Below are positions 43,683-45,725 of a stretch of DNA of 64,000 nt, one piece after another. The notes beneath the pieces were generated by a model, which was given only the letters and a program-made list of their open reading frames with translations, was not told the origin of the DNA and ran no database searches. The translations under genes and the position numbers were made by a program. Each line of letters opens with the position of its first letter. Position 1 is the first letter of the stretch. The DNA is taken from the NCBI GenBank assembly GCA_002356455.1, contig AP017968.1, positions 2,108,001-2,172,000 of the forward strand, in the 5' to 3' direction. The DNA is from Fusobacterium varium (GTDB lineage: Bacteria; Fusobacteriota; Fusobacteriia; Fusobacteriales; Fusobacteriaceae).

Positions 43683-44756
43683 TTATATTTTTTCCCTTGC
43701 TATCCTTGAATTTATTGCTGGTAAAATTTCACATATATGGAGTCCTGTATCTTTTCTTATTTTTGAAACATCTGGATATAATATTACATTATCTCCTTCT
43801 TTTATTAATTCATCCGCCTCTATAAATGTATTATCCATAGTTACCAGTAATATTTTATAAGGCTTTCCATTTATTAAGCAATAACTTTTTTCATTTGCTT
43901 TAAAAAAGCCTTCTCCATATCCAATTTTTATCTTTGCTGCATAAGTAAAATTTTTTTCACATAAAGTCGTTTTTAAATTATAGGCCAGATACCTTGATTT
44001 ACTTACATCTCTCACTCCTGCTATTTTTCCTTCTAATCTGAATATCTGTTTTAAGCCTTCATGAAAAAAACCTTCTTCCTGCAAACCGTAAATATATATT
44101 CCAGGTCTAAGATGTGTCATTATCTCACAGTTTCCAAATAGTAATATCCCTACACTATTTTGCATATGAATCATTTGAAATCTGTCTTTACCTAAATATT
44201 TTACTATTTCTGTAAATTTTTCAATAAGTTCCACACCTTCTTCGTATTCTACAGCATAAAGATGAGAATATATACCTTTAAAAAATAATTTCTTTTCTTC
44301 TATATATTTCTTTAAATTTTCTATATCCTCTTGAACTATTCCATTTCTTCCAAAACCAAAATCTATTTTTAATTGTATATTATCTGGAGAAATTCCATTT
44401 TCTATAAGCTCTTTTAATTCTGCAAAAGTATTAGCCGATACTTCTATAGACCTATTATTTTTTATAATATCCAAAAATTCTATCCCAATACTTTCAAATA
44501 CAAGTATTCTGCTTTCTGTAATTTTTTTATTTTCCAATATTTTTTCAGCTTCATTTAAACGAGCTACAGCAAATTCTCTATATCCATTATTATAAAGTAT
44601 TTCTGATACCATTCCTATATCATGACCATAAGCATTAGCCTTTAATACTGGAAGTATTTTCTTTTCATATTTATTTTCTAAATGTTTTATATTATGAATG
44701 AGATTTCCTTCTGAAATCAGCATTTTTATAGAATTGGCTGCCATTTTAAATACCAT
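43683..44756 (-). CDS. alr: Alanine racemase (PLP fold type III)
   Basis: This 357-residue cytoplasmic enzyme interconverts L- and D-alanine for the cell wall. The PLP lysine is Lys39 in LKANAYGHD. The second catalytic residue, a Tyr, is in IGYGEGF. DFGFGRNG and LRPGIYIYG are further family blocks. Its start lies inside the end of the amino-acid binding protein gene (11-base overlap), so it is probably translated from that transcript. That pairing leaves open a racemase of another amino acid that the transporter brings in. Confidence 0.88.
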   Translation of the reverse strand: MVFKMAANSIKMLISEGNLIHNIKHLENKYEKKILPVLKANAYGHDIGMVSEILYNNGYREFAVARLNEAEKILENKKITESRILVFESIGIEFLDIIKNNRSIEVSANTFAELKELIENGISPDNIQLKIDFGFGRNGIVQEDIENLKKYIEEKKLFFKGIYSHLYAVEYEEGVELIEKFTEIVKYLGKDRFQMIHMQNSVGILLFGNCEIMTHLRPGIYIYGLQEEGFFHEGLKQIFRLEGKIAGVRDVSKSRYLAYNLKTTLCEKNFTYAAKIKIGYGEGFFKANEKSYCLINGKPYKILLVTMDNTFIEADELIKEGDNVILYPDVSKIRKDTGLHICEILPAINSRIAREKI

Positions 44757-45480
44757 GCTTTGCTTTTAGTTTGTCAATAGTTCCATCTGTCATCATCTCT
44801 TTTAATACTTTATCAAACTTATCTTTTAACTCTACATCTTCTATATTAAATGCCATAGCTTTATTTTCCCCTTCTACTGTTACTACAGTTTTTAAATCTG
44901 GATTACTTTCAAGATATTTTTTAGCTACAGTTGCATCTAACAGCATAGAATCTATTTTTCCAGCTTTTAAAGCAAACAGAGCTGCTGTATGCCCAGAAAA
45001 TGGCACTATCACTGCTCCAGGAACTTTTTTTACTATATCTTCTTCTGTAGTCCCCAATTCTATACCAAATCTCTTATTTTCTAAGTCTTCCAAAGACACC
45101 ATTGGACTAGTTTTCAAAGCTATATAACACATAGCTGGTGAAATATATGGAGTAGAAAAATTAATAAATTTTTTTCTTTCTTCACTGACACTCATACCTG
45201 CTATTACAATATCTACTTTTCTTGTTTGCAGTGCTGAAATCAAACCATCAAAATTCATATTCATCCATTTATATTGAAATCCCATTCTTTTAGAAAATTC
45301 CTCTATAATATCTGGATCTAAACCAACTATTTTATCATTTTCCAGATATTCAAATGGTGGGTACTCTGCATTTGTTCCAATCACATAAACTTTTCCTGTA
45401 GTTTTTGTCTCTTTTTCTTTTCCACACCCCACAAATATCATAATCATTAATACTGTTAGTAAAGCTAAAACCTTTTTCAC
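44746..45480 (-). CDS. Amino-acid ABC transporter substrate-binding lipoprotein (SBP family 3)
   Basis: This 244-residue protein has a lipoprotein signal ending MIFVGC (Cys about 19). The family 3 binding-protein pattern follows: GTNAEYPPFEYLENDKIVG, MNFDGLISALQTRKVDIVI, ERKKFINFS and LGTTEEDIV. It binds a polar or basic amino acid in the periplasm. No permease or ATPase gene is adjacent, so it must work with a transporter coded elsewhere, or as an orphan. Start is GTG after AGGAGG. It lies behind a structured leader with an intrinsic terminator. Confidence 0.9.
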   Translation of the reverse strand: MKKVLALLTVLMIMIFVGCGKEKETKTTGKVYVIGTNAEYPPFEYLENDKIVGLDPDIIEEFSKRMGFQYKWMNMNFDGLISALQTRKVDIVIAGMSVSEERKKFINFSTPYISPAMCYIALKTSPMVSLEDLENKRFGIELGTTEEDIVKKVPGAVIVPFSGHTAALFALKAGKIDSMLLDATVAKKYLESNPDLKTVVTVEGENKAMAFNIEDVELKDKFDKVLKEMMTDGTIDKLKAKHGI

Positions 45481-45506
45481 AAATCTTCCTCCTTAATTTT
45501 TTCTAT

Positions 45507-45538
45507 AAAAAAAACACCAGTCCAAAAAAGACTGATGT
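45507..45538 (-). terminator. Attenuator hairpin in the leader of the binding-protein gene
   Basis: On the minus strand ACATCAGTC pairs with GACTGGTGT (one wobble) around T/G-rich loop and is followed by eight T. It sits 26 bases before the GTG start of the gene it precedes, so it is a regulated terminator rather than an end of an upstream gene. A competing GATGT/ACATC pairing can form just upstream. Confidence 0.8.
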
Positions 45539-45690
45539 TGATTACAAATAAAGACATCTTAATCTATAAATATTTAGATACAAAATGCTAATTAATCCAC
45601 AAACTTTCTTTAAGGAACATGTAATTACTATTTACTTTTAATCTGTTCCTTAATCTCCTTAGCATTTTGCCACCATCCTATAAAATAATT
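45539..45690 (-). ncRNA. Structured 5' leader of unknown class before the amino-acid binding protein
   Basis: Transcription from the promoter at 45697-45725 gives about 210 bases before the GTG. The leader has an 11-base perfect closing stem (CAAAATGCTAA with TTAGCATTTTG) that encloses a 10-base perfect hairpin (TTAAGGAACA with TGTTCCTTAA), and then the attenuator. It has no motif of the glycine, lysine, SAM, T-box, TPP or other classes I can recall. Confidence 0.6.
45588..45665 (-). CDS. Possible leader peptide, arginine-rich
   Basis: A 25-codon frame lies wholly in the leader. Its ATG is in the 5' half and its TAG in the 3' half of the closing stem. It begins MLRRLRNRLK, with four Arg and one Lys codon in the first ten, and GGTGG lies five bases before the ATG. 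It could be an attenuation peptide that senses arginine supply, or a chance frame in a structured RNA. Confidence 0.3.
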   Translation of the reverse strand: MLRRLRNRLKVNSNYMFLKESLWIN

Positions 45691-45696
45691 TTCTCA

Positions 45697-45725
45697 ATTA
45701 TATTCCTATATCCTATTAAAGTCAA
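45697..45725 (-). promoter_or_regulatory. Promoter of the binding-protein/alr operon
   Basis: On the minus strand TTGACT and TATAAT are separated by exactly 17 bases; one of the best promoter matches in the window. Confidence 0.8.

Follow-up and report, generated by a model that had tools for sequence, protein, structure and literature searches.

A probable arginine-sensing leader-peptide attenuator upstream of an amino-acid-binding protein gene in Fusobacterium varium

Between a promoter and the GTG start codon of an amino-acid-binding protein gene in Fusobacterium varium lies a structured leader that ends in an intrinsic terminator, which raises the question of what this leader senses and by what means. 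The locus sits on the minus strand of the window (the whole 64,000-nucleotide stretch of DNA that was analysed). A sequence-only reading had described an attenuator-type leader that might be a new amino-acid-responsive RNA. We put at roughly nine in ten the probability that the leader is a ribosome-mediated transcription attenuator, predicted to sense charged tRNA-Arg, and not a riboswitch. This assignment draws on sequence and comparison, namely an open reading frame (ORF) with its Shine-Dalgarno (SD) site, Arg enrichment, a terminator, helices and complementarity in relatives, and arginine-related downstream genes; from these we infer translation of the ORF, ribosome stalling, and the direction of the response.

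The leader in the window

All features of the leader are on the minus strand. A sigma-70-type promoter (45697-45725) combines a -35 element TTGACT (45725-45720), a 17 nt spacer, and a -10 element TATAAT (45702-45697); it matches the consensus at 11 of 12 positions, is the top-scoring promoter in 4.2 kb, and has identical hexamers upstream of the orthologues L010 and L011. An outer protector stem, P1, pairs the 5' arm GCAAAATGCTAA (45659-45670), which includes the leader start codon, with the 3' arm TTAGCATTTTGT (45580-45591), which includes the TAG stop codon. Within it, the inner protector stem P2 pairs TTAAGGAACA (45644-45653), containing Arg codon 6 (AGG), with TGTTCCTTAA (45610-45619). The intrinsic terminator, AACATCAGTCT / GGACTGGTGTT plus a U-tract (45505-45539), has an 11 bp stem at 45539-45513 and lies about 32 nt from the GTG. 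These elements agree with the sequence-only reading, which had named a near-consensus promoter, an 11-base outer stem (in fact slightly longer), a 10-base inner hairpin, and a strong terminator 26 bases before the GTG, a distance that holds when measured from the U-tract. The folding energy of 45507-45690 gives z = -3.65 against shuffles, and z = -2.07 with the terminator excluded.

What had been overlooked is an ORF that spans both stems. The leader peptide MLRRLRNRLKVNSNYMFLKESLWIN is encoded at 45588-45665 by 25 codons, with an SD site AGGATGG (45673-45679) 7 nt upstream of the ATG. Arg codons AGG, AGA, AGG, and AGA occupy codons 3, 4, 6, and 8, so that Arg accounts for four of the first eight codons. 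When the window leader was shuffled with dinucleotide composition preserved, none of 400 shuffles gave an SD-led ORF with an equal number of Arg codons. Two features of leader-peptide attenuators are therefore found here: a small SD-led reading frame, complete with start and stop codons, between promoter and terminator, and enrichment of that ORF in codons of arginine, with arginine-related genes downstream in relatives.

The first gene under putative control (44746-45480) encodes a family 3 amino-acid-binding protein (SBP_bac_3), and the second (43683-44756), which overlaps it by 11 bases, encodes an alanine-racemase-family PLP enzyme. The enzyme scores 143.8 bits against TIGR00492, under the cut-off of 168, and its substrate may be an amino acid other than alanine. 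The binding protein does not reach the cut-off of the NCBIfam models that describe named Arg or Lys binders.

Rfam searches at gathering and permissive thresholds returned nothing beyond chance matches in the leader, and the T-box model RF00230 matched neither the leader nor the source genome (G000). The sequence-only reading had recognised no riboswitch or T-box hallmark and had named an Rfam search as a check; that search gave no class match in the leader and upholds the statement. Far from the leader, a purine riboswitch aptamer at 2146-2244 on the plus strand (RF00167, 57.5 bits) is the only Rfam match in the window at gathering score.

Arginine leaders in relatives

The source genome (4.12 Mb) is one of 61 family genomes compared. 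Among these Fusobacteriaceae genomes, an Arg-rich leader ORF with an SD site, followed by a terminator, precedes at least 18 homologous binding-protein genes, and a conserved Arg codon is in frame in every one of these leaders. The SD site of the orthologue leaders is AGGAGG. The leader peptide of a 91% orthologue reads MLRRLRNRLKINNNYMFLKESLWFE, that of a paralogue in the same genome MLFKNLRSMPQLNISNIFLYKRIL, and further examples are MLRNLRNTKQLNKFVILRDSRLNCFIL, MLRHLRRSNLQLNNYF..., MFTRRIRNLTQYKRIFLRIHL, MTARRRKAVHNRSAYLRILD, and MRARRKNLHNMTDSFRILL. In 19 representative leaders, Arg makes up 54 of the 228 residues in codons 2-13 (24%) versus 3.4% in the genes of the window, an enrichment of about seven-fold, and 40 of 60 leader Arg codons are AGG (versus 22%). 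Three leaders (L029, L032, and L033) retain Arg through CGT, CGC, and CGG codons, while AGG and AGA serve elsewhere; this use of synonymous codons indicates that the amino acid is conserved and not the RNA alone. Two leaders (L002 and L015) have only one Arg codon among the first nine.

Other residues are also frequent in codons 2-13, with Leu at 36, Asn at 33, and Lys at 23 occurrences, as might be expected of an attenuator for one of these amino acids or for general translation speed. Leu, Asn, and Lys are, however, common in AT-rich ORFs, whereas Arg exceeds its frequency in the window genes by the factor given above, and argC, argJ, and a dimethylargininase-like gene are among those that follow such leaders in relatives. 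We accordingly give a response to anything other than arginine hardly any credence.

The genes that accompany the binding protein vary among relatives. At L030 and L027, the Arg leader and binding-protein gene are followed by the dimethylargininase-like gene (the L030 protein was scanned). Arg leaders also precede operons at L002, L014-L019, L026, L028, L029, L032, and L033, in which the binding-protein gene is joined by one for a PLP aminotransferase and, usually, one for an iron-ADH/GldA-like protein; the aminotransferase (L029 protein scanned) matches the gamma-hydroxyarginine cyclodehydratase GntC among others, below cut-off. It is possible that these operons encode an undescribed arginine pathway. 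Near argH, the binding-protein genes at L034-L037 are preceded by short single-Arg leader ORFs (MYRKNKKAFYDK, MNRKNEKNKTAE, and MEINRIIKN, each ending at a stop codon) and terminator-like hairpins, and these are possibly diverged attenuators. Other binding-protein genes of the source genome have no Arg-rich leader ORF. One of them (L008, G000:C1:1704411-1705139:-) is preceded by an apparent His leader, MKVITVLKNTLHHHHHR, and then a terminator, which suggests that the leader-peptide mechanism is in use in this genome.

A covariance model built from 13 leaders was run over 98 Fusobacteriota genomes, with gene identity not used. The strong matches (E < 1e-7) that we inspected were all upstream of binding-protein genes. 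The next match, L059 (E 9.7e-5), lies upstream of argC (TIGR01850, 426 bits, cut-off 233.6) and argJ, and weak matches with the Arg-rich ORFs MLFRNDRNRVQNNKNSIFYYILSN and MIRRFRIRTSKKLNIKPYSFKLVDQI lie upstream of amino-acid ABC permease-ATPase operons. Further weak matches (L041-L044, L060, L061, L063, L065, L067, L068, L070, L071, and L073) were taken as chance; most of the inspected ones fell inside coding sequence and lacked an Arg ORF led by an SD site. For L063 and L065, the dismissal was by analogy with L060 and L061.

An SD site with an Arg-rich ORF was found in 18 of 30 argC upstream regions, or 19 of 30 counting L059/L102, whose leader has two Arg and falls below this criterion. The identical criterion selected 1 of 30 argH upstream regions, an imperfect control in that several of these regions are coding. 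The argC leaders are also found in another family of the order, taken here to be Leptotrichiaceae (for example, MKMIRRIRDNKFTQLNYKPLSDGV), and there have an Arg-rich ORF and terminator in common but little sequence. Upstream of argC at L084, L085, and L089, two Arg-rich leader ORFs stand in tandem, suggesting that these are double attenuators.

These comparisons bear on whether the leader is a riboswitch, an RNA that would itself bind an amino acid and control the terminator with no need for translation. The compact, stable fold of the window leader, its terminator and alternative pairings, and the transport gene downstream would all suit such an RNA. A conserved SD-led ORF whose Arg codons are in frame and vary synonymously speaks against it, however, and in the binding-protein leaders the conserved nucleotides are mostly in the ORF, SD site, and hairpin arms. 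The argC leaders of Leptotrichiaceae, which keep the ORF and terminator and little else, and the lack of an Rfam match argue in the same direction, and we regard direct binding as most improbable. Of the earlier proposal of a new amino-acid-responsive RNA, then, the responsiveness is well supported but the reading as a riboswitch is not: what is conserved is a translated-looking Arg-rich ORF with helices. The description as an attenuator-type leader is likewise well supported, by the leader ORF, the terminator, and the protector and antiterminator helices.

Pairings predicted to switch the terminator

All 40 leaders gave a terminator call in the interval from leader ORF to gene, although in a few, L030, L080, L083, L088, and L093 among them, the hairpin called may not be the one that works. 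In most leaders, the terminator 5' arm finds its best partner at the ORF end, ∼50-77 bases past the leader ATG. In the window, the predicted antiterminator joins a 5' strand near the leader ORF 3' end (AAAGA, TGT, GATTA; 45593-45611) to a 3' strand that overlaps the terminator 5' arm (TAATC, ACA, TCTTT; 45527-45544), and it appears in the stalled-state fold when the RNA is taken up to the terminator loop. At single loci, the complementarity is moderate (P 0.19 in the window, P 0.08 in the orthologue L011). In 18 representative leaders, antiterminator complementarity restricted to the ORF-end position beats shuffled spacers (Fisher combined P ∼1e-13) and a P1-type helix between the start-codon and stop-codon regions beats shuffles (combined P 9e-9), both values being optimistic because the representatives are not fully independent. 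Two more features of leader-peptide attenuators are thus found, an intrinsic terminator after the ORF and, at the family level, an antiterminator that a ribosome at the stop codon could cover.

Conservation and covariation of the two stems in relatives had been proposed as a check. The stems are kept in related leaders; P2 shows compensatory change in only two of eight pairs. Of the two outcomes that the sequence-only reading had named as refuting it, an Rfam match to a known class and a lack of stem conservation among relatives, neither was observed. A short GATGT/ACATC pairing, proposed earlier as the competitor of the terminator, exists at 45558-45554 with 45538-45534; it is shortened in the orthologue in genome G026 (GATGA), is not the best partner elsewhere or the best-supported competitor in the family, a place taken by the antiterminator above, and was rejected as the main switch. 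A crude comparison of folding in the stalled and stop states gave a small difference, with related sequences as its input. Summing the pairing probability across that arm of the terminator discriminated poorly, and the positioned duplex test was clearer.

Taken together, these pairings are consistent with the following sequence of events. With RNA polymerase still transcribing the leader, a ribosome would begin to translate the Arg-rich ORF. When arginine is plentiful, the ribosome would reach the stop codon and cover the antiterminator strand, or depart so that P1 and P2 form; the terminator would then fold, and transcription would end upstream of the binding-protein gene. When arginine is scarce, the ribosome would stall at Arg codons 3-8 and mask the 5' arm of each protector stem, leaving the antiterminator strand at the ORF end free, as the usual ribosome footprint would predict. 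This strand would then pair with the terminator 5' arm, and polymerase would read into the binding-protein and racemase-like genes.

The leader peptide might instead stall the ribosome on arginine or a related small molecule, and not through a shortage of charged tRNA. SpeFL, a ribosome stalling peptide, responds to ornithine in this manner. In the binding-protein leader group, conservation does go beyond Arg to a peptide core, R-[NST]-x-x-[KQ]-hydrophobic-N, but this core is missing from the argC and ABC-operon leaders, to which Arg richness alone is common. The conserved positions also build the P2 loop and arms, so conservation at the RNA level could explain them, and stalling at high arginine would, with this antiterminator, have the wrong sign for an operon of uptake and synthesis. 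We consider nascent-peptide arrest very unlikely, and charged tRNA-Arg remains our preferred signal.

Relation to known arginine control and known attenuators

In bacteria, the control of arginine genes is commonly attributed to ArgR or T-boxes. ArgR/AhrC regulons have the identical task of controlling arginine uptake and synthesis, but theirs is a DNA-binding repressor. In searches whose controls gave matches, 97 of 98 Fusobacteriota genomes had no ArgR C-terminal domain, and the N-terminal domain was over cut-off in none of the 61 family genomes. An ArgR-regulated operon would need ArgR in its genome, and this was not found. T-boxes were nearly absent from the 16 genomes tested.

Classical leader-peptide attenuators control the trp, his, leu, thr, and ilv operons of Proteobacteria and Actinobacteria (for example, PMC1262725). 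The leader described here resembles them in its small ORF with many codons for the regulatory amino acid, its protector, antiterminator, and terminator helices, and its related downstream operon, and differs in the amino acid (arginine), the phylum (Fusobacteriota), an outer protector stem in which the start codon is paired to the region of the stop codon, and a binding-protein gene without its own permease or ATPase. The closest arginine-codon leader that we found is orf34 of Salmonella speF, a bacterial leader ORF in which the Arg codons AGG CGG sense arginine supply; it controls ornithine decarboxylase by way of Rho, RNase G, and the ribosome-binding site of speF (PMC6386406). In the leaders described here, the genes are for arginine uptake or synthesis and follow an intrinsic terminator. 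Leader-peptide attenuators outside Proteobacteria and Actinobacteria are represented by the His leaders of hisS/hisZ in bacilli, which, unlike ours, sense histidine and occur in Firmicutes; the main text of the premature-terminator survey that reports His leaders in Firmicutes (PMC2965389) is silent on Fusobacteria.

The mechanism is ordinary and well known. Our searches of openly accessible papers found no arginine attenuator in Fusobacteriota (Fusobacteria, Leptotrichia), and within that literature one in this phylum appears to be undescribed. The window leader very likely belongs to a phylum-wide set of arginine attenuators. A bolder proposal, which we hold to be unlikely, is that Fusobacteriota gave up ArgR and T-boxes for arginine and that Arg leader-peptide attenuators, some in tandem, run an arginine regulon of argCJ operons, amino-acid ABC operons, and orphan binding proteins with racemase, Fe-ADH, or aminotransferase, with the peptide core of the binding-protein group perhaps adding nascent-chain arrest.

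These findings lead to the prediction that the whole phylum, Fusobacteriaceae and Leptotrichiaceae included, senses arginine via leader-peptide attenuation. This would extend a classical mechanism to an amino acid and a phylum for which we found no earlier account and provide testable arginine-responsive operons where few regulators have been characterised, and the leaders may help to assign arginine-related roles to adjoining genes of uncertain function.
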